A stretch of 64,000 bases of DNA from a virus: positions 1 to 64,000 of IMG/VR virus record IMGVR_UViG_3300035704_000387; one strand, 5' to 3'. Positions 4,725 through 63,701 of the stretch are shown piece by piece. A program made the translations under genes and the position numbers. Under the pieces are notes generated by a model. It was given only the letters and a program-made list of their open reading frames with translations. It was not told where the DNA came from and searched no databases. Positions within the stretch are counted from its first letter, which is position 1; every line of letters begins with the position of its first letter.

Positions 4725-6017
4725 TCACGTCGCGACGTTCCTGACCTTCGCCGGGGCGCCGGGGGTGGGAACCGCAACCTGCTCGCCCTCGTCAGAAAAG
4801 CGCATCAGCCTCCACACGAGCTTGCGATCGACGCGCTCCCGCTTCGTGGCATAGGCGTAGGCGTCCAGCGTCATCCGGCCGTCCTTGTGACCGATCTGGG
4901 CCTGCACGTAGGGCAGCTGGCGGCCGGCCCAGAAGCACAGGCAGGCGTAGGTCCGGCGTAGGTCATGCGGCGTCAGGCCCTCGGGGATCAGCAGCTTGTT
5001 GCGCTCGGCCCGTTCATTGTTGGCCCGCTTGACAACCTCGGGAAGGAAGCGCTGGATCGGCCGGGCGCCGCGCTGCGTGCCGTTGCGCGTCGCGAAGAGG
5101 GGCGTCTTCGGCGTCGGGTCGGCACGGATGATCTTCGGCAGCTGGACGAGGTGCGGGCGGACTTCCCCAAGCAGATAGGCGGTCAGGTCGATGTCGCGTT
5201 CACCGGCCTCCGTCTTGGAGCGATCGACCCGCAGCACCTCGGTGTGTACGTCGAGATCCGCAAGGCGCGCTGCGCAGAGCTCCTCGACGCGAGGACCGGC
5301 GAGGATCAAGGTGGCCAGCAGGGCCCGTCGACCGAAGCACTGGTGGTGCTGGTTGCGATCGCGCAATTCTTCCTCCCACTCTCCAGCGGCGTCGAGGAGG
5401 TCGACGACCATGTCCGGCTCGAGGAAGCGCTTTCGCTTCTTCCGTTCGCGGACCCGCCGGCGGGGGCCGCGGGCGGGGTTCGCCGGCAATAGCCCGTATT
5501 CGACCGCGTCGTCGAGGATCATCGCGAGCGCCGCGAGCGCCATGTTGATCGTCCTCGGCGAGAAGGGCTTGCCTCGCTCGGAGATGCGCCGGGCCATGTA
5601 CTCGCGGAAGTCGTCGACCCAGCGGACGTCGATGTCTTCGGTGGCGACGTGGGGCTGAGCGCCGAGGATGTGATTGAGGCGCCCCTTGTAGTCGGTGGCC
5701 GTCTTCGGCTCGAGGCCTTCTGCCTGCCTGCGTTGCCACCACCGCGACGCCGTCACGTGGAGGGTCTCGGCCTCGTCGGAGTGCGCCGGCGCGGTCGTCG
5801 CGATCGGCGGCGACCAGGTGCCGCGCTCGACCTGGCCCATAACGCGCTCTAGCTCGACTTCGGCGCGCTCCGGCGTCCAGCCCTCGTGGTTGGTCCCGAG
5901 GTTGACTCGCGGGCGCCGGCCCTTGTAGGGAATGCGGAGACGGAAGGACTCGGTTCGACCGTCCTTCCACCGGTGGACTTCGACTTCTCCCTTTGCTGGG
6001 CGCGGCAAGCGCCGCAC
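4725..6017 (-). CDS. int: Tyrosine-family site-specific integrase
   Basis: 430 aa if started at GTG 6017, which lies one base past the excisionase stop; an ATG at 6050 would add 11 residues. The N-terminal part has the Arm-binding strand pattern, then a SAM-like core-binding domain (TASRWWQRRQAEGL). The catalytic domain shows the tyrosine-recombinase residues (numbering from the ATG): R254 in GPRVEEL, K279, H362 and R365 in TPHDLRRTYA, H388 in IGHKDGRM, and a Tyr in DAYAY at 398-400. It should integrate the phage at the tRNA-Gly site next to it. Gene order int-att is the usual arrangement. Confidence 0.93.
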   Translation of the reverse strand: MRRLPRPAKGEVEVHRWKDGRTESFRLRIPYKGRRPRVNLGTNHEGWTPERAEVELERVMGQVERGTWSPPIATTAPAHSDEAETLHVTASRWWQRRQAEGLEPKTATDYKGRLNHILGAQPHVATEDIDVRWVDDFREYMARRISERGKPFSPRTINMALAALAMILDDAVEYGLLPANPARGPRRRVRERKKRKRFLEPDMVVDLLDAAGEWEEELRDRNQHHQCFGRRALLATLILAGPRVEELCAARLADLDVHTEVLRVDRSKTEAGERDIDLTAYLLGEVRPHLVQLPKIIRADPTPKTPLFATRNGTQRGARPIQRFLPEVVKRANNERAERNKLLIPEGLTPHDLRRTYACLCFWAGRQLPYVQAQIGHKDGRMTLDAYAYATKRERVDRKLVWRLMRFSDEGEQVAVPTPGAPAKVRNVAT

Positions 6018-6018
6018 G

Positions 6019-6282
6019 CTAGTTCCCGGCGGGCAGAGGGAGGAGCTCAACCCCAGTCGGCGCGGCCCTGCGTCCCGGTCGCTGCGGCTTTTTTGCCTGG
6101 CTCACGAGGGCCTCGAGGGACTGCCGGCGCTTGTAGGCGGCGATGCGGTCGGGCTCAAAGCGCAGCTGCGCGCGGCACGAGCGACCCATGCGGATCCCGC
6201 CGAGCTCGACCGCGTTCTCGCGGACCCAGTCCTCGGACATGGCCAGCTCGGCCGCCACTTCTGCCGTCGTCAGGAGAGCCAT
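6019..6282 (-). CDS. Excisionase-like MerR-type HTH protein
   Basis: 87 aa from ATG 6282. The N-terminus LLTTAEVAAELAMSEDWVRE is the helix-turn-helix of excisionase/MerR-like proteins, followed by an RFEPDRIAAYKRR wing typical of the HTH_17 group. It sits directly upstream of int and probably directs excision. The frame is open further left to right, but this start leaves 5 bases after the preceding stop and fits family length. Confidence 0.8.
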   Translation of the reverse strand: MALLTTAEVAAELAMSEDWVRENAVELGGIRMGRSCRAQLRFEPDRIAAYKRRQSLEALVSQAKKPQRPGRRAAPTGVELLPLPAGN

Positions 6283-53439: not shown

Positions 53440-55119
53440 TCAGGACATAGAGACGCGGGAAAGCGGTCGGTCCGACGACGCAGCAGCACCGATCGCGCGA
53501 ACCGTCGTAGAACCTGAGCCGAACAGCCGATCGGCGACGATGGCGGAGCCCAACGAATTGCTGAGAAGCAGGGCGAGGGCAAGATCTATCTCATGCCCAG
53601 GCGTAAAGGTGATCGGCTGGGCACGAAGGACGATGGCCATCGCTGCCTCAATCTCCAGCGCGGGCAGCAGGGTCGCCCTGATCGGCTTCAGATGGTGAGG
53701 CCCAAGAGCCGCATCCGTCTCCCCTGCCGGCAAGAGCCCCAGGTAGATCGGCTTGTGGAAGGCCAGCACTGCGGCATGATCGATCTCACCGGCGGGGATG
53801 AAGCTGATGGGTCCGAAGAGGTTGCGGTGGGAGAGTTCCTGCGCCTGGCCACCCTCTTCCGCCGGGAGGAAGAGGGCGAAGTGAGTCCAAGCGAGCGAGC
53901 GAGCGGCATCCGTCTCCGCAGCTGCACCCAGTGCGATCTGTCGCAGGGCCGCCACACCTTTTGCCGCATCGACCTCAGTGGCCGGGAGCAAGCCAACGCG
54001 GTGGCGGATGGCAAATGCAACCCCGACATCCGCCTCGATGGCGAAGCTCAGAGCCAGTCGCTTCGACAGGCGGGCAGACACGGCATCGCCTGCCTCGGTC
54101 GCTGGAGAGAAAGCGACATGGATCGTCTTCAGCACCATGATGCCGACTGCCGAATCGACCTCTCCAGCAGGAGCCAGGGCCACATGCCTGGTGACCCTGA
54201 TCAACAGGACCGAATCAGCCTCGGCCGCAGAGAGCAGCCCTACTTGCTTCGCCCGGGCCAGCCCTACGGCTGCATCGGACCCGGCCGCGATGCCCGGACT
54301 AATCCTTTTCAGCGCTGGACGGGCCACGGCGGATCCCGACTCGCCCGCCGGGACAAAGGCAACCCGCTTCGCGCGAGCGAGTACCCGCGCACCATCAACC
54401 TCTGCTGCGGTGCCCAGGGTGACGCGCTTCGAGCGCGAGAGAGTTTGAGCGCTGCCCGTCTCCGCCGCCGGCGTCAGGGTCTTGCGGATCGTCTTGACAA
54501 CACCGAGGGGGCGGGGGGAGTCAGTCTCGGTGCTCTGACCGAGGGTGACTTTCGTACCGGCTTCTTCGATCGCCCCGCCGTAGAAGTCATCCCAAGCAAT
54601 CCCGGTGCCGCTTCCGGCATGACCAATGAATCCTTCGCCGGCAACCGTCGAATTCGTTTTTTCGATGACGGTGGTTTTGACCCCGCCCGAGGTTTCATGG
54701 ATGCACTTGATCGCCGTGCCGTTGCATTCCAGCCAGAGCTTGTCGCCCACCGCGATCGTCTTCGTGCCGGTGCCGACCGTCGCTTCGACGCCCGCTTTGA
54801 CGCTCCCGAGTTCCCAGCCGCCTGCCGTGGTGACGGCGAGGTAGTAGCAGTTGAGCGTTGAGAGGCCGGGGTTCTGGATGCGTGCCGTCAACTCGAAGGT
54901 GCGGCTGGCGACGGAGGCGGCGACCGTGATCCGCACGACCTGATTGGCAGGGAATTTCGTGGCCCAGTATGAGTTCGACCAGGCGTTTTCGGAGTTGGCG
55001 AATCGTTCGCTAGCGAGGGCTACCTGTTTGTCGCCGTTGAAGACCGGACCTTTCCACGCACCACCGTTGTTGAGGGGCGTTTCGTTGGTGCGGTTGCCGT
55101 TGTCGAGAAGGGTGGCCAC
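53440..55119 (-). CDS. Capsid decoration/minor structural protein with about 16 repeats
   Basis: 559 aa. Residues 1-185 form a LamG-like jelly roll (VRITVAASVASRTFELTARI, AVGDKLWLECNGTAIKC). From about 195 to 535 come about 16 units of 20-22 residues with the form L-x-PAxExDxAxxLxxxKx (AAEVDGARVLARAKRV and similar). The units look like a spiral or fibre stalk. The gene lies between capsid-proximal and adaptor genes, so it is most likely on the virion surface. Similar (E/T)TDxAQPL-type repeats occur in other actinophages. Confidence 0.7.
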   Translation of the reverse strand: MATLLDNGNRTNETPLNNGGAWKGPVFNGDKQVALASERFANSENAWSNSYWATKFPANQVVRITVAASVASRTFELTARIQNPGLSTLNCYYLAVTTAGGWELGSVKAGVEATVGTGTKTIAVGDKLWLECNGTAIKCIHETSGGVKTTVIEKTNSTVAGEGFIGHAGSGTGIAWDDFYGGAIEEAGTKVTLGQSTETDSPRPLGVVKTIRKTLTPAAETGSAQTLSRSKRVTLGTAAEVDGARVLARAKRVAFVPAGESGSAVARPALKRISPGIAAGSDAAVGLARAKQVGLLSAAEADSVLLIRVTRHVALAPAGEVDSAVGIMVLKTIHVAFSPATEAGDAVSARLSKRLALSFAIEADVGVAFAIRHRVGLLPATEVDAAKGVAALRQIALGAAAETDAARSLAWTHFALFLPAEEGGQAQELSHRNLFGPISFIPAGEIDHAAVLAFHKPIYLGLLPAGETDAALGPHHLKPIRATLLPALEIEAAMAIVLRAQPITFTPGHEIDLALALLLSNSLGSAIVADRLFGSGSTTVRAIGAAASSDRPLSRVSMS

Positions 55120-56350: not shown

Positions 56351-57796
56351 CTATTCCTTGACTTTGAGGCCCCGGAAGGCTGCTTTCGAGAGCACCTTGG
56401 AACCGGTGCGCCAGAAGAAGTACAGCCCCGACTGACCCGATGGCTTGCCTTCCGGCCCGGGAACGTCCGGGATCGGTTTGGCGACCATCCCGATGCGGTC
56501 GGCAATCAGGAAGTAGCGGAAGTCACCGAAATACAGAATCGTTTTCAGTTTCGCCACCGCCGATTCCATCGTCGACAGCTCGTTGGTCGGGTAGTCCAGC
56601 AGTCGCTGGTTCAGGTTCCCGTTGGGCACGTTGGAGAGCCCTTCCGGGAGCCGGACCCACAGCGAAGCGCCGCCGGCCGTGTCGAACTGGCGGATCTTGT
56701 TGTAGATCGCCCGGTTGCCGACCCAGGCACCACGGGTACGGAACCGGGGCGGGAGAGCCTGTTCGAGGCCATAGACATCGCCCACCGCGAAGGTGACCGA
56801 AGCTGCGGTTTCGACCAATTCGGTAGCGCCAGTGGCGAGACCGAACGGCTCTTTTTCGCCGGAGCCGGACAGGTATTTCGTCGCCTCGAGTTCGTCCTTG
56901 GCATCCGTGACCAGGTTCGCGATTTCGGGAGCGATCGAGCCGTAGTCCTGCCCGAACTCGTAGCTCCACTCAGCGAATGCATCCGCTGCGTGGCAGGTGA
57001 CTTCCGGCTGAGCGAATTTCGGAGAGTCGTCGGTGGTTTCTTCACCTTCCGCTTCCCTGAATTTCGCAACCATGCCGCCAGAGGTCGCCCCTTTCCAGGT
57101 GTTCGTGGTGGTCTGCTCCACGCGAGAAATCGCGCGCAGCGGGTTCACCACGCCACTGGACGTCGGGATGATGGTCGGGTCGAGCGTGTAGGGCAGCAGG
57201 AAGCCACCCGTCGCACCTTCGCCAAGATTCAGGGAACGAGTCGCCTGCATCTCGGCATCGGTCATCTGCTGGCCCGTGATCCCCCGCAGGAAACCCTGCT
57301 GGTACCTACGGTTACCGGTCAGCAGCATGTGGCGCGAGAATGCGCCGTCGGCCCCGTCCAGTTTCTCCTGGAGCTGCTCCAGGTGGGCCTGTACGTCCTC
57401 GCGATTGGCATCACCGTGAGCTGGCACCATCCGCTCGATCTCCCGCTTGCCGCGATCACGCAGCTCGCGGACCATCTCGTGCGGATTCGCCATGCTGCCG
57501 CGAATCGTGGAGAGGTCGTAGATGTCTTCGCCGGTCACGGCACCTGGGCGCCGGGTCTGGAACGAACGTTCCTCCTCGCGGTTCTCCTCTTTGCCGGAGA
57601 GCGCCTCGACACGTTCTTTCCGGAAGTGAAGCTCTTTGAGCAGTTTTTCGTTCTCTTTGCGCTCCTCCTCGAGGTGATCCCACCTGTTCTGGGCCTCCTC
57701 GGGGAGAGCTTGGTTGCGATACTCCTCATCCAGGCCGGTGATCTCCGAGCGGAGCTCCTCGACGCGGGCTTCGAGTTCCTCGATGTTCATAGGCAT
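56351..57796 (-). CDS. HK97-fold major capsid protein
   Basis: 481 aa from ATG 57796 behind GGAAAAGG. The first 90 residues are a coiled-coil scaffold-like delta domain (MNIEELEARVEELRSEITGL). Then the HK97 fold: GGFLLPYTLDPTIIPTSSGV, WSYEFGQDYGSIAPEIANLV, LGDFRYF-type end and FWRTGSKVLSKAAFRGLKVK. The delta domain is normally removed by the prohead protease encoded just upstream. Confidence 0.9.
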   Translation of the reverse strand: MPMNIEELEARVEELRSEITGLDEEYRNQALPEEAQNRWDHLEEERKENEKLLKELHFRKERVEALSGKEENREEERSFQTRRPGAVTGEDIYDLSTIRGSMANPHEMVRELRDRGKREIERMVPAHGDANREDVQAHLEQLQEKLDGADGAFSRHMLLTGNRRYQQGFLRGITGQQMTDAEMQATRSLNLGEGATGGFLLPYTLDPTIIPTSSGVVNPLRAISRVEQTTTNTWKGATSGGMVAKFREAEGEETTDDSPKFAQPEVTCHAADAFAEWSYEFGQDYGSIAPEIANLVTDAKDELEATKYLSGSGEKEPFGLATGATELVETAASVTFAVGDVYGLEQALPPRFRTRGAWVGNRAIYNKIRQFDTAGGASLWVRLPEGLSNVPNGNLNQRLLDYPTNELSTMESAVAKLKTILYFGDFRYFLIADRIGMVAKPIPDVPGPEGKPSGQSGLYFFWRTGSKVLSKAAFRGLKVKE

Positions 57797-57812
57797 GTTG
57801 GGCCTTTTCCTT

Positions 57813-59198
57813 TCAACCGGCCGATCGCCACGGGGGCGTCGGCTCGCCGGACTGACGCCACGGGGGCGTCTGCTTTTCATTGCTCGCGTCGTCGCGGCTC
57901 CGGCCGGAGTGAGGAACCTCGGCTCCAGGGAGTGCTTCTTCCGCTTCTCGATCTCCTGCCTCGGTGGCAGGCTCTGGAGTGCCCTCTGCGGGCGGCTCCG
58001 AAGACTCTTTGCGCAGGGCGTTCACGTCGAGTGCCTCTGCGACTGATTCGGGGCTGAATCCGGCCTCGACGAGGGCGCTGATGGCCTCCTCGCCTCCGCC
58101 GCGCGCCTCAGCCTCGATGGGCTCGGCGCTTCGGTCCTTCAGTTCAGCCGGTTCCTTACCCGCATCCCGCAAGTGGTGGGCCAGGTGGTCGTAAACGCCT
58201 TGGCGATCCTCGTCGGGGATCGTGGTCCCCTGCATCTCGCCATTGAGGACACCGATGCCGGTGCTGCAAGCCTGCGTGTCGGCGTCGCCGACCGTGCCGT
58301 CCTCGGCTACGAGGTGATGCACGAACCGGCAGGCGTCCTTGGGGATGTTCCCTTCGTCGATCCTGGTCTCGTCGATCCAGGCGAACGCTTCGCGGGCGGT
58401 CTCGGCTGAGAGCGGCGAAGGAAGGTTCGCCCGGTTCGCCGGCCCGTCCCATGCCGCTTCGCTGGTCGGCGTCTCCTTGTAGGTGACAACGGAGCGTTTC
58501 TGCTGCGTTTCGGAGACCAGCGATCGAAAGCGCTTTGGGTCGCGGCGCATCCAGTCCTGACGCTCCTCGTCGCTTACCTGGTCTCCCTTCAGGGCGACGA
58601 GGTCGGTCAACGAGACACAAGGGGCTGAAACGGGCTGAATCGAGCGCACGCCAGCACTTGCTCCCGAGTAGGCAGGGAAGGTCACCGGGCCGAACTCGCT
58701 GACCGCAGCCTCAGTCACGGTCCGTTCTGGTAGTCCCTTCGGATTCGCTGCCGAGACCCCAGGGTCTTCCTTGAACAGTTCCTGCACTGAGCGGAAGCAG
58801 AAGGATGCGCCGTAGAGCTTCTCCCTCAGCCCGGGAAGGATCTCTTGCACATAGAGAGCTTCGACAAGGAGCGGCACCTCGTAGTACACCCCTTCCTCGT
58901 CTTCGCGAAGCTCCTGAATCGGCCCGAGCGGCTTGTCGCCTGCCAGGTAGTCAAAGCCGTGCTGGAAGAGGACTTTCATTGATTCGCGGCCCTCTCCGAT
59001 CGTCTTCTTGAAGGCGCCCGGCGCGAACCGCTCTATGAAGTTGCCCTCCATGAATGACTGGATCACGGTGGGCTGGTTGAACACCGCGAAGTGGCCAAAC
59101 AACACCGGAGGCTCACCATCGCCTTCGGACCGAAAGCCCTGAACCCGGGCAGTGACCGCCCGATAGCACGGGCCTTCGAACTCGCGTAGAGACGGCAT
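57813..59198 (-). CDS. Prohead protease (HK97 S78-type) with long C-terminal extension
   Basis: 461 aa from ATG 59198 with AGGAGG upstream. First 200 residues are the protease: FAVFNQPTVIQSFMEGNFIE, a His in VLFQHGFDYLAG, and TEAAVSEFGPVTFPAYSG with the catalytic Ser. After it comes a Cys/His-rich domain (FVHHLVAEDGTVGDADTQAC, VYDHLAHHLRDAGKEPAELK) and a tail with LVEAGFSPESVAEALDVNAL, related to the portal's C-terminus, then TPPWRQSGEP/TPPWRSAG. The extension is likely scaffold or interaction sequence. Confidence 0.87.
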   Translation of the reverse strand: MPSLREFEGPCYRAVTARVQGFRSEGDGEPPVLFGHFAVFNQPTVIQSFMEGNFIERFAPGAFKKTIGEGRESMKVLFQHGFDYLAGDKPLGPIQELREDEEGVYYEVPLLVEALYVQEILPGLREKLYGASFCFRSVQELFKEDPGVSAANPKGLPERTVTEAAVSEFGPVTFPAYSGASAGVRSIQPVSAPCVSLTDLVALKGDQVSDEERQDWMRRDPKRFRSLVSETQQKRSVVTYKETPTSEAAWDGPANRANLPSPLSAETAREAFAWIDETRIDEGNIPKDACRFVHHLVAEDGTVGDADTQACSTGIGVLNGEMQGTTIPDEDRQGVYDHLAHHLRDAGKEPAELKDRSAEPIEAEARGGGEEAISALVEAGFSPESVAEALDVNALRKESSEPPAEGTPEPATEAGDREAEEALPGAEVPHSGRSRDDASNEKQTPPWRQSGEPTPPWRSAG

Positions 59199-59258
59199 TG
59201 ATCCTCCTGTAGAGGTAGGTGAGAACGGCACCGGCCCAGACGCCGGGGACCGCAGGGC

Positions 59259-60620
59259 TTACTCGCTGCTTGAGGGAGCCGGCGGCGTGTTGCCTTCGGC
59301 CGAGCCGGGTTTGCTCCCCGGCGGTTGAAGCTGAATCGAAACGAGACCGGAGTGCTGGAGGCGGCTCAGATCGTTGGAGTCAATGGCCAACATCGCGCTC
59401 TCAGGGGTATAGCCGGCTTCAACCAGTCGTTTCAGCGCTTCGGCCTGTTTGAACTGGATTTCCGCAGCGTCTTTCTCGTCCTCTTGGAGGTAGGAGATGT
59501 CAGAGGCGTCGTACCAGAGCCTGCAGGCGGTCGGGACTTCGATGATCGTTTCGAGCGATGCACAAGCCTCCCGCCACAGACGGCGGATCGTCGCGTCGCC
59601 GAAGTGGCGTCGAGCGTTCCCGTAGTTCGCCAGCGTGGCTGCTTTCAACCCTTCGGAGAGACTGGCGATGATGGGCGGTACTCCAGCTGCCGCAGAGATC
59701 CGCGTCTCTCCCTGACCCTGAACGGCCTGGAATTCGATCGCCTTTAGGTCCGCACCGACGACTTCGGCTTCCCCCCCCGCCGCCAGGTAGAGGGTTTTGA
59801 AGGCGTTGATGCTGCCCTGGTGACCTTCCTCGAATTTGTCAATCCAGTCGTTGAAGACCTCGGGGTTCACGTTCGCGCCCATATTCACGACCATGCCCGG
59901 AACCGCTCCGTTCTCGAAGAACTGGAGCTTGTGGGTGGTCATCGCCTGGTCGCCCATGATCTCCCGGATCAACGGAGTGATCCATGACATGCCCCGGAAT
60001 TCAGCAGTCGGGTCGGGGATGGGCTTGAAGTGGGCGACTTCGTGGGTGAGGAAGGTCATCGGGCGCCCGCTGCCGCCTTTGCCTCCCGGCTCGTAGATGT
60101 AGCCGAGCACCTCCGCATCGACATCGCCGAAGCCAATGTCCGGATCCTTGTAGCTGCCAAGGACCATCGTCACCCAGTCAGGTCGCAGCCGCTTGATCTT
60201 CCCGCCGGGTCGCAGCGCACCAAACCAGTTCCCGGCCAGATCGGCATCCTGGGCCATGCGGGAGAGCAGATTGCCGGTGGTCGCACCGGGCCAAGGGTTC
60301 TGCAGAGGCGCCAAGGCTCCCGTCGTGAACGGCTGCCCCGGCCGACCGTTCGGCATCCGCTGCAAGCAGAAGACCCCTTCGGAGAACACCGATCGCCTCG
60401 CCTCCATGCAGGCGAAGACGATCGGGTTCGCCTTCATCGCCTGATAGGCGTAGCCCTCGAAGTTGCCCCTGATTTCCTCCTGCTTCGCCCCAAGGGTCGT
60501 CCTGGGGCCACTGAGGAACGGGTTCATCCCGTCCCATTTGAGGAACTGGTTCAGGTATTCCTGGAGCGAGAGGCTGACGCCTTCGGAGGAGCGCCGGGAG
60601 AGTGCTTGGCCGAACTTCAC
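59259..60620 (-). CDS. HK97-type portal protein
   Basis: 453 aa, GTG coupled to the upstream gene. YQAMKANPIVFACMEARRSV, FLTHEVAHFKPIPDPTAEFR, MSWITPLIREIMGDQAMTTH and QGQGETRISAAAGVPPIIAS are portal signatures. C-terminal VEAGYTPESAMLAIDSNDLS is the usual portal tail. Forms the dodecamer at the capsid vertex. Confidence 0.9.
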   Translation of the reverse strand: MKFGQALSRRSSEGVSLSLQEYLNQFLKWDGMNPFLSGPRTTLGAKQEEIRGNFEGYAYQAMKANPIVFACMEARRSVFSEGVFCLQRMPNGRPGQPFTTGALAPLQNPWPGATTGNLLSRMAQDADLAGNWFGALRPGGKIKRLRPDWVTMVLGSYKDPDIGFGDVDAEVLGYIYEPGGKGGSGRPMTFLTHEVAHFKPIPDPTAEFRGMSWITPLIREIMGDQAMTTHKLQFFENGAVPGMVVNMGANVNPEVFNDWIDKFEEGHQGSINAFKTLYLAAGGEAEVVGADLKAIEFQAVQGQGETRISAAAGVPPIIASLSEGLKAATLANYGNARRHFGDATIRRLWREACASLETIIEVPTACRLWYDASDISYLQEDEKDAAEIQFKQAEALKRLVEAGYTPESAMLAIDSNDLSRLQHSGLVSIQLQPPGSKPGSAEGNTPPAPSSSE

Positions 60621-61168
60621 GGCTTGCCGCCGAGGAGGATCTTGAAAGGCGGTGCCACGGCGGCGTTAAACAGGCTCGCAGCTTCGAGTGCCAGTTTCAC
60701 GCGGACGCGCGGCTCGCCTTTGGACGCGAAGAGGGCACCGCGGGCGATCTCGCCACCGGACCCCACGGCCACCTCACCGCGAGCCGACCTGCCGACCTGA
60801 AAGTCGGAGCAGATCCGGTACAGCGAGCCGCGCCAGCCGACCAGGAACTCGCCGCCTTCCTCAACGCCGTTTTCGACCTTCGCGTAGCCCCCACTCTTGA
60901 GCGTCGTCCGAACGGCGTCGATGAACTCCGTAGTCATCCACTTGTCGCGAGCATCCTGGCCGATGCTCTTTTCAGGTCGGCGCGGGAGGTTGAGGTTGTA
61001 GCGCAGCAATTGCCCCATCCGAAAGGAAGACGTGAAGCCGTAGACGAACTCACCTGCCCGCCAAACCTTCTCGTCTGCCCGAATCGTCTGCGACCAGCCG
61101 CCCGTTCCGGCCGAGTCGCCGCCGATGAGCACGCCCTTCTCAGTCTCGACGCCGACGATGCAGGTCAC
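60617..61168 (-). CDS. Proteasome/HslV-like Ntn (threonine) hydrolase
   Basis: 183 aa, GTG start. The product begins Met-Thr-Cys-Ile-Val-Gly-Val and continues KGVLIGGDSAG. If Met is removed the Thr is residue 1; Asp17 (GGDS) and Lys33 (in DEKVWRAG) then fall exactly at the catalytic positions of HslV and proteasome β subunits. FVYGFTSSFRMGQLL and VGSGGEIARGALFA follow the same fold. Role in the phage is unknown: capsid maturation or interference with host proteolysis are possibilities. Coupled to portal and to the 109-aa gene. Confidence 0.78.
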   Translation of the reverse strand: MTCIVGVETEKGVLIGGDSAGTGGWSQTIRADEKVWRAGEFVYGFTSSFRMGQLLRYNLNLPRRPEKSIGQDARDKWMTTEFIDAVRTTLKSGGYAKVENGVEEGGEFLVGWRGSLYRICSDFQVGRSARGEVAVGSGGEIARGALFASKGEPRVRVKLALEAASLFNAAVAPPFKILLGGKP

Positions 61169-61494
61169 GCACCAACCTCGCCCCGGCCAAGATTCGGCGT
61201 CGAGGGAGGCGACGATGGCGGCTCGATCACGAACCCCAGCGCGCTCTCCCGTGGACCCGATCGCTCGGCCATCAGTCGAGCAACATGCTCCGCTTTTTCG
61301 CGATTAACCTCGCCGGCGTAATAGATGCCCTCAGGGTCATCGCGGTAGTCCCACACGCCGCCGAGTCGCTCGGTCCCGTCATCTTCGACGACGACCTCTA
61401 ATGCAAGGCCGAGCGGGTGTAGGAAGAGGCGGTTCAACTCCTGGAGATAGCCCTCGCTGCGGAACTCGGCGATATCAATGCGCTTGATCTCCAT
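61165..61494 (-). CDS. Conserved phage protein near the terminase
   Basis: 109 aa from ATG 61494, which overlaps the upstream stop. RIDIAEFRSEGYLQELNRLF, then LHPLGLALEVVVEDDGTERL recur in phage proteins of no known function. Beta-strand rich; the terminal Pro/Ser tail overlaps the HslV-like gene start. Confidence 0.65.
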   Translation of the reverse strand: MEIKRIDIAEFRSEGYLQELNRLFLHPLGLALEVVVEDDGTERLGGVWDYRDDPEGIYYAGEVNREKAEHVARLMAERSGPRESALGFVIEPPSSPPSTPNLGRGEVGA

Positions 61495-61643
61495 TAGACC
61501 TCCACCCCTCTCCACACGGCTGCAGCCAAACCGCCACCGCCGACCACCATCGCCGCCGGCACAGAGAGCATCACGAGCCCTACCAGGGCAGTAGAGACTC
61601 CGACCACAAGCAGAAGGAGGGCAGCGGGAAACGGAAGCTTCAT
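61494..61643 (-). CDS. Very small membrane protein
   Basis: 49 aa from ATG 61643 behind AAGGGAG. Two hydrophobic helices (AALLLLVVGVSTALVGLVML and AMVVGGGGLAAAVW). Located between terminase and portal modules; role unknown. Confidence 0.6.
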   Translation of the reverse strand: MKLPFPAALLLLVVGVSTALVGLVMLSVPAAMVVGGGGLAAAVWRGVEV

Positions 61644-61677: not shown

Positions 61678-63165
61678 TCAGCGGAAGGCGAAGAGCGGTT
61701 CGGAGGGCGGCTCCTCTTCCAAGTGCTCGCCGACCGCCGAGGAGTGGACCATCGAGGCGGCGTCCAGCGCATCCCAGACCCGCTGCTCCTGCTGGCTTTT
61801 GTTCCGCGAGCTGGAGGAGCGATCGAATCGGATGCGGCCGTCCGGCAACGTCCTCGCGATCGCGTTCATCGCGTGCCGGGTGAACTCGGGGTCGCCCGGC
61901 TGTTTCAGGAAACCCTCGCGGAGCCCCTCGAGGAACCGCTCTGCGGCCAGCGCCTTCATCGGGTTGCCCTGTGGATAGCTGACAACGCGAACCCCAGGGA
62001 ACTCGTCCCGAATCCAGCCGAAGATGTCCTCGGCGCGGGTTTCGTCTCCGACCACGACCTCGACGGGATTGCGTTCGTTTAGATCCCTGAACGCCTGTTT
62101 GACCAGCTTCGGTTCGAGGCTCGTCCCATCACGAGGCGGGGTGAGGATGGTCGGTATGCCGAGCTGGCGATGTTCGCGGTCCCGCCACCAGAAGGGCGCC
62201 CAAACGGTCGTATCCCATTTCCAGCCGGCATCGAAGCCGACCCACACGGCCTGGCCCTCTGGAATGTCTTCGCCAACGTCAGCCTCGGTCCATTCGGACT
62301 CGTCGATCGCCGTTGAGATCCCGCGCACGGCTTGGTTGCACTTGAACCGACGCCAGTGAGTGCCCGACATCGTTGGCGAGCCGCGGTCCTCAGCGAGCAT
62401 CTCGACCGTGATCGTCGACAACGGATTCGCTGCCTTGACCTGCTCCATGTCCTCGACATCGCCATCTGCTGGCACCGAGTAGTCGTGGAGCACCATCCCG
62501 GCGCCCGCTGCTCGCGTATGGGCGCCCGTCACCCTGAGATCGGGCGCCTCGGTTCGCACCTGGGCGCGGATCTGCTCGAACTCGCTGTCCGGCTCACCGG
62601 CAGTCGAGATGGCAGCGACCTGACCGCCACGCTTTCGCGTCTTCCCCCGCCAAGTCCGGTAGAGGCGAAGGTCGCGATGCCGATGGAGCTCGTCGAGCAG
62701 GGCGAGAGTAAAGATCACGCCATCGCCCGTGCGCTCGTCAGCGGCGAAGACCTGGATGCGCCCACCGGTCCTCAGCGCCTTGATGCGCCGGTAGCCGTCG
62801 AAGACTCGGAAGCGCCTTTTCAGGCCATCGGTTCGTTCGACGAAGCCAGCGGCTTGGCGGTGAAGCCACTCGCACTGGTCTCGGGATGAGGCACCGAGCA
62901 CCACCTCGGCGCCGGGCGTGTAATCGGCGTGGTAGAGGGCGACGCCGCCGAGCAGCGTCGTCTTGGCATTTCCCTCGGGTACGACCATCCAGACCTCGGG
63001 CTCACCGGCGAGGATGTCGGCGACGACTTCGAGTTGGAAGTCCTCCGGCACCCAGAGCGAACCCGTGTCGAGAACGAGGTTGCTCGCGTAGGCCCGGAAG
63101 TGGTCGACGGTGAGCGGTTTAGGACGCCTTGCGCTTTGCTCGCGCTTTGGCGAGCTCGTCGTCAC
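61678..63165 (-). CDS. terL: Terminase large subunit
   Basis: 495 aa from GTG 63165 (overlaps the small subunit by 47 bases). Walker A-like PEGNAKTT at 63-70, Walker B LALLDELHRH, and a nuclease domain with WVGFDAGWKWDTTVWAPFW and VVVGDETRAEDIFGWI. It powers DNA packaging through the portal and cuts the concatemer. Confidence 0.9.
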   Translation of the reverse strand: MTTSSPKREQSARRPKPLTVDHFRAYASNLVLDTGSLWVPEDFQLEVVADILAGEPEVWMVVPEGNAKTTLLGGVALYHADYTPGAEVVLGASSRDQCEWLHRQAAGFVERTDGLKRRFRVFDGYRRIKALRTGGRIQVFAADERTGDGVIFTLALLDELHRHRDLRLYRTWRGKTRKRGGQVAAISTAGEPDSEFEQIRAQVRTEAPDLRVTGAHTRAAGAGMVLHDYSVPADGDVEDMEQVKAANPLSTITVEMLAEDRGSPTMSGTHWRRFKCNQAVRGISTAIDESEWTEADVGEDIPEGQAVWVGFDAGWKWDTTVWAPFWWRDREHRQLGIPTILTPPRDGTSLEPKLVKQAFRDLNERNPVEVVVGDETRAEDIFGWIRDEFPGVRVVSYPQGNPMKALAAERFLEGLREGFLKQPGDPEFTRHAMNAIARTLPDGRIRFDRSSSSRNKSQQEQRVWDALDAASMVHSSAVGEHLEEEPPSEPLFAFR

Positions 63166-63529
63166 CGTCTAGCTCCTCGAAAGGATCTGCCGGCTTCTCG
63201 CCGCCGGGGTCCTTCTTCGATCGGAGCATTTCCCAGTAGAGCTTTTGCGCAGCAACGGAACCTTTCTTCGCGGCCCGCGAGACGACGATCCGCAGCTCGT
63301 CCTCGTCCATCGGCTGCTCTCGCTCGGCGGACTCTTCGCGCGCCCGCTCGATCGCATCGGCGAAGTCCGAGTAGGGTCCATCGCCCTCGCGCCGGCCGCG
63401 CGTCAACCAGTTCTTGACGGTCTTGACGTTGACGCCCGCAGCGCGAGCGGCATCCGAAGTCGAGAGGCCATCGAAGACGAGTTCGACGATCGCTTCACAC
63501 GTGTCGGGATTGAACTTCGGAGCAGCCAT
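63119..63529 (-). CDS. terS: Terminase small subunit
   Basis: 136 aa from ATG 63529 with GGGGGTGG upstream. VFDGLSTSDAARAAGVNVKT then NWLTRGRREGDGPYSDFADA is the HTH plus helix of small terminases, and RAAKKGSVAAQKLYWEMLRS the oligomerisation part. It selects phage DNA for packaging. Confidence 0.82.
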   Translation of the reverse strand: MAAPKFNPDTCEAIVELVFDGLSTSDAARAAGVNVKTVKNWLTRGRREGDGPYSDFADAIERAREESAEREQPMDEDELRIVVSRAAKKGSVAAQKLYWEMLRSKKDPGGEKPADPFEELDGDDELAKARAKRKAS

Positions 63530-63701
63530 CGGGACCACCCCCAGGATGTGCTTCGCTTTTTTTCGCCACGACGGGGGAGCCGGTGTCGGCGTATTTCGAC
63601 CTCCCAGATCGACCCCCTACCCCCCCTCTGGAGGGTGCTGAGAGGCGCCGTCAGAGCGGCCCGGGGTGGCTTCCGCTTTGCGATCACTGCAAGCGGCTGA
63701 G

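Follow-up and report, generated by a model that had tools for sequence, protein, structure and literature searches.

What is a proteasome-like peptidase doing among the packaging genes of a phage that already carries a head protease of the ordinary type? The question is raised by an open reading frame at 60617-61168, on the minus strand of a 64,000-nucleotide stretch of DNA (hereafter, the window) belonging to a virus record of 68,133 bp; its 183-aa product begins MTCIVGVETEKGVLIGGDSAGTGGWSQTIRADEKVW. An initial annotation, which named no strand, had described this gene as an HslV/proteasome-like enzyme located beside portal and terminase, and had proposed that it matures another virion protein or interferes with the host proteasome. 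The genes of the region are as follows.

56351..57880, minus strand: HK97-type major capsid protein, 509 aa (PF05065, 5e-33)
57813..59231, minus strand: S78 prohead protease, 472 aa, the usual enzyme of head maturation (PF04586, 2.6e-17; phrog_80, 9.7e-18)
59259..60620, minus strand: portal protein, 453 aa (PF04860, 2.5e-25; phrog_12, 1.3e-29)
60617..60620, minus strand: 4-bp overlap between the peptidase stop codon and the portal GTG start (coordinates and sequence)
60617..61168, minus strand: HslV/proteasome-like Ntn hydrolase (phrog_1040, 7.7e-17; invariant Thr/Asp/Lys, AlphaFold2, Foldseek)
61165..61515, minus strand: small phrog_3954 gene (4.1e-11), whose stop overlaps the peptidase start (GTGA)
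61494..61643, minus strand: very small hydrophobic, membrane-type ORF between the TerL and phrog_3954 genes (sequence)
61678..63165, minus strand: terminase large subunit (TerL), 495 aa (PF03354, 9.7e-7; phrog_9, 3.3e-52)
63119..63538, minus strand: terminase small subunit-like HTH protein (phrog_4102, 6.7e-9)

Read along the minus strand, the order is therefore terminase small subunit-like gene, TerL, hydrophobic ORF, phrog_3954 gene, peptidase, portal, S78 protease and HK97-type capsid. The 4-bp overlap between peptidase and portal recurs in relatives L001 and L085, and would point to translational coupling of the two genes. The phrog_3954 gene, which has a 63% identical homolog in L002, likely has its true start at an ATG at 61494. 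An integrase at 4725-6050 suggests that the phage is temperate. Two other minus-strand proteins of the window were noticed: a 697-aa protein (1-2094) combining several Cro/C1-type helix-turn-helix domains and one of ArsR type in a single chain, and, downstream of the capsid gene, a 559-aa protein (53440-55119) with many short degenerate repeats of the 'LxPAxExDxA' type, which matches phrog_14065, a PHROG of no known function.

The reading frame was examined in detail. The GTG at 61166-61168, the sole common start, is the earliest start codon to follow the upstream stop and directly precedes a Thr, which leaves no room for a propeptide beginning at a common start. Counting from this Thr, the Thr/Asp/Lys spacing is exactly the T1/D17/K33 of HslV and β-subunits, as had been noticed initially, with Thr1 encoded at 61163-61165, Asp17 at 61115-61117 and Lys33 at 61067-61069, all on the minus strand. 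The plus strand holds an unrelated open frame over the same interval (frame 1); an antisense ORF, 60602-61321 on the plus strand, was dismissed, as all homology lies in the minus frame. A promoter scan near the peptidase gene yielded nothing above chance.

Assignment to a family depended on the method. The window protein matched PHROG 1040 ('peptidase HslV family') with E=7.7e-17, and all 58 sequences of our alignment match this PHROG too; it is a clustering label rather than a demonstrated function, and no tested difference separates the window protein from it. A Pfam search with the window protein alone did not recognise it, nor did any NCBIfam model at E≤0.01, the curated HslV models included; the latter weakly matched 3 to 7 of the 58 aligned sequences. 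Since both libraries miss the window protein alone, it is the PHROG match, the profile and the fold that carry the proteasome-like call. A profile was required for the PDB search, as the single sequence gave chance matches only: with a profile of 11 sequences, BPH, the beta-proteobacterial proteasome homolog, was matched at 4.6e-7 and HslV at 5.6e-6, together with 20S beta subunits.

In the alignment with relatives of 30-72% identity, M1, T2, D18 and K34 were each present in 58 of 58 sequences, so that no relative lacking the Thr/Asp/Lys set was encountered; the invariance of Met-Thr is partly built in, since part of the homologs were gathered with the pattern MTCIVGV, which preselects it. No such preselection applies to D18 and K34, or to the homologs obtained with a second pattern (around SFRMGQLL). 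Also invariant, in GTG-start numbering, were G44, R50, Q53, G136 and G138, that is G43, R49, Q52, G135 and G137 of the mature protein.

AlphaFold2, run on the 58-sequence alignment, produced a confident model (pLDDT 96.1, pTM 0.91) in which helices and strands follow one another as in proteasome subunits: an Ntn fold of the alpha-beta-beta-alpha type, its nucleophile N-terminal, with helices 49-58, 71-92, 139-148 and 153-167 around the beta sandwich. A Foldseek comparison with the PDB returned 925 matches at E≤1e-3, and all 50 among the matches listed were proteasome, HslV or BPH chains, the top one being BPH 5ovs (TM 0.80), followed by 20S beta and HslV. In a viral library, the best matches (TM 0.85-0.91) were phage homologs, one of them annotated HslV. 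A fold other than Ntn, which would have spoken against the initial proposal, was thus not what structure prediction gave. We conclude that PHROG, profile and predicted fold confirm the product of 60617-61168 as a real proteasome-like Ntn hydrolase.

Is the enzyme likely to be active? In the 20S proteasome and in BPH, further active-site residues matter, namely Ser129, Asp166 and Ser169. Judged from the BPH profile alignment, from which the site correspondence was taken, the Ser129 equivalent (residue 137, alignment A2) is Cys in 46 of the 58 sequences and Ser in the window protein, and the Asp166 equivalent is mostly Ser or Asn across the 58. Because of these substitutions, catalytic activity is not guaranteed for the family. 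The protein might then be a catalytically dead or ligase-like Ntn protein serving as a structural or binding unit, an idea to which the variable auxiliary residues lend themselves, as does the presence of a ligase, connectase, in the proteasome-homolog family (PMC8665760). We regard it as highly improbable: T1, D17, K33 and the glycine motif show no variation in any of the 58 sequences, and the two-helix S3/S4 insertion that marks connectase was not seen in the AlphaFold2 model.

Relatives were numerous. A tblastn check was passed by 403 viral contigs, of which 80 were kept; at E≤0.01, matches were obtained in 200 phage records. Plasmid copies were found in Rhizobium, Sinorhizobium, Mesorhizobium, Paraburkholderia, Streptomyces and Bacillus. 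One pattern search of genome contigs yielded a homolog on a 37.6-kb phage-like contig of Mycolicibacterium palauense, which also encodes TerL, portal and S78; the window portal is 44% identical to the portal of this contig, and the nearest named-phage matches of the window TerL are Streptomyces phages, at about 28%. Across 397 genomes from the phylum to which Mycolicibacterium belongs, a survey yielded 8 matches: the phage-like contig already mentioned, a possible homolog (L101), one weak partial match, and five that were set aside as looking like ordinary 20S beta subunits, aligned over no more than the first 40-46 residues of 286-404-aa frames. Longer homologs with C-terminal extensions exist in Pseudoalteromonas and Vibrio phages (L119:4001-5167, 388 aa; L120:4001-4867, 288 aa); a search of these two and of L044 and L006 for domain fusions revealed no recognisable extra domain. 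Related genes also lie on Streptomyces linear plasmids (L110:8001-8543 and L117), the L110 copy near helicase and 3'-5' exonuclease genes.

Does the position in the packaging region carry meaning? In this phage, as in its two closest relatives, the peptidase belongs to an operon of TerL, portal, S78 and capsid genes, and the TerL-peptidase-portal placement is found in the window, L001 and L002. Over 78 non-redundant loci, 15 have the peptidase at most 300 bp from TerL, portal, S78 or capsid, often overlapping it, in differing orders. Among the 35 relatives with a recognised portal, the peptidase is on the portal's strand in 34, and within 5 kb of it in 18, against 7.6 expected by random placement (P=7e-5). 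With a null placing the gene in the late half of the genome, however, 15.2 are expected (P=0.20). Because late-half location explains the 18 of 35, we do not take portal proximity as functional evidence; the gene lies near portal in about half of the wider relatives, a share no higher than expected for a gene of the late operon. The packaging-near state requires 18 changes on a quick tree, at least 5 of these changes being forced by well supported branches. In lytic isolates, the peptidase lies near genes for DHFR/thymidylate synthase, PhoH, ribonucleotide reductase, or thymidine kinase and deformylase. The peptidase is often a late-operon gene, and its neighbours are not fixed. The initial description of a gene in the packaging module was right for this phage, where it adjoins portal and terminase genes, but its position, unconserved in the family, offers no support for a particular function.

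These data bear directly on the proposal of a second virion-maturation protease, which would trim the portal, a scaffold or delta-domain remnant, or another head protein, after or beside S78. The overlap with the portal gene, shared by this phage, L001 and L085, the late-strand bias, and the TerL-gene-portal, portal-gene-S78 and S78-gene arrangements in unrelated modules all speak for it. Nevertheless, the conserved place beside portal or capsid that a head-maturation role would predict was not found, as position varies among relatives; lytic phages carry the gene elsewhere than in their head modules, rhizobia in or near nif clusters, and the portal enrichment vanishes under the late-half null. 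Moreover, the normal S78 protease that the initial annotation reported is indeed there (PF04586, 2.6e-17) and S78 was matched in 27 of 50 relatives, so that the peptidase is no stand-in for the head protease. We consider a dedicated maturation role unsupported and quite unlikely. In a bolder version, a phage lineage would have recruited a proteasome-type barrel into its packaging operon, where, needing no unfoldase, it would serve as a second assembly protease and clear or trim portal and scaffold products. This seems to us very doubtful; if true, it would put a genuine relative of the proteasome to work in virus assembly.

Alternatively, the protein could be directed at the host, degrading or mimicking a component of host HslV/HslU or of the 20S proteasome, or removing host stress or defence proteins. 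Many lytic phages carry the peptidase beside host-takeover and nucleotide-metabolism genes, cellular copies are kept on plasmids, and the lack of an own unfoldase makes a host AAA+ partner conceivable. This last idea is without sequence support, however, no match was found in the defence library PADLOC, and the family has no conserved neighbour; we hold this explanation to be unlikely, if worth keeping in mind. Regarding unfoldases, a search of the 68-kb phage record, which may be incomplete, gave no match to AAA (PF00004) or AAA_2 (PF07724). In 39 relatives, no AAA_2 match was above the cut-off, and a PF00004 protein was found in 9 of 50 relatives, mostly on larger contigs. A partner ATPase could still be supplied by the host.

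The reading that we favour, with somewhat more belief than doubt, is that of a group I peptidase, most likely AAH (see below), carried as an unfoldase-independent, mobile late cargo and not as a dedicated virion-maturation protease. Removal of Met before Thr by methionine aminopeptidase is an established rule, and here it would expose Thr1 as the N-terminal nucleophile acting with Asp17 and Lys33. From the predicted fold, the subunits would probably form a small ring barrel, as in HslV and BPH. As no recognisable AAA+ unfoldase is encoded in the phage record, the enzyme may act unfoldase-free, its probable substrates being peptides and unfolded or loosely folded proteins, as proposed for BPH, rather than tagged native ones; soluble misassembled proteins or host proteins would be likely targets. 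In this phage, the overlapping genes suggest late synthesis, with translation alongside the packaging and head operon. This does not extend to the whole family, because relatives in lytic phages occupy early or metabolic regions. Should host proteins or virion assembly turn out to be its field of action, the enzyme would be a rare case of a virus using the proteasome fold.

Another setting of the gene was found in rhizobia, whose copies are located within or near nif gene clusters. In the quick tree, the rhizobial clade is nested among phage sequences (98% SH-aLRT), which looks as if a phage gene had been domesticated in symbiosis plasmids. On two Sinorhizobium symbiotic plasmids (L109:8001-8546 and L115:7001-7546), the peptidase gene lies between nifQ and an Fe-S assembly-nifS-nifW-fixAB group; the Rhizobium copies L114 and L118 are ~6 kb from nifH, and that of R. 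tropici (L108) is truncated. At ~5.6 kb from the proteasome-like gene of S. fredii GR64 there is a ThiF/JAB(Mov34)/multiubiquitin operon (L109:1-2422), a link that may be due to chance, being absent at the S. mexicanum locus.

How does the window protein compare with known systems? Group I proteasome homologs, phage-borne members included, were described by Fuchs et al. 2021 (PMC8665760), who reported AAH in alpha-proteobacteria, actinobacteria and many phages, and found gene context uninformative. By comparison with the published description, the window protein is most likely an AAH. Like AAH, it has T1/D17/K33, four helices H1-H4, no propeptide and no C-terminal H5; the last three traits are common to BPH and other group I members, and so not diagnostic for AAH alone. 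The nearest cellular copies of the family that we found, rhizobial and Streptomyces plasmid genes, are 53-58% identical to a phage relative, which fits AAH. PPH is likewise a viral group I proteasome homolog, but has about 140 aa and no helix H2 (PMC8665760); with 183 aa and a long H2 at 71-92, the window protein is not a PPH. BPH (PDB 5ovs, 5ovt, 5ovu) is the best match by fold and by profile and, as here, has no dedicated unfoldase, yet identity is ~18% in the fold alignment, and in the phage family its Asp166 site is mostly Ser or Asn and its Ser169 site is not Ser. HslV/ClpQ shares fold and catalytic set (profile E 5.6e-6, TM 0.60-0.70), but, unlike for HslV of HslVU, there is no HslU in the phage record, and curated HslV models do not match the window protein. 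Fuchs et al. detected AAH in no actinobacterial phage (PMC8665760), a gap that the Mycolicibacterium palauense contig may fill, and perhaps also the window. Literature searches brought up no experimental work on the phage protein. The phage-borne family itself is already known, being annotated in PHROGs and having phage members described in Fuchs et al. 2021; what is new here are its contexts. In phages, the gene recurs in late operons, though at shifting sites; in rhizobia, a clade of copies lies within or close to nif clusters. Both contexts open the question of the substrate to tests in tractable systems.
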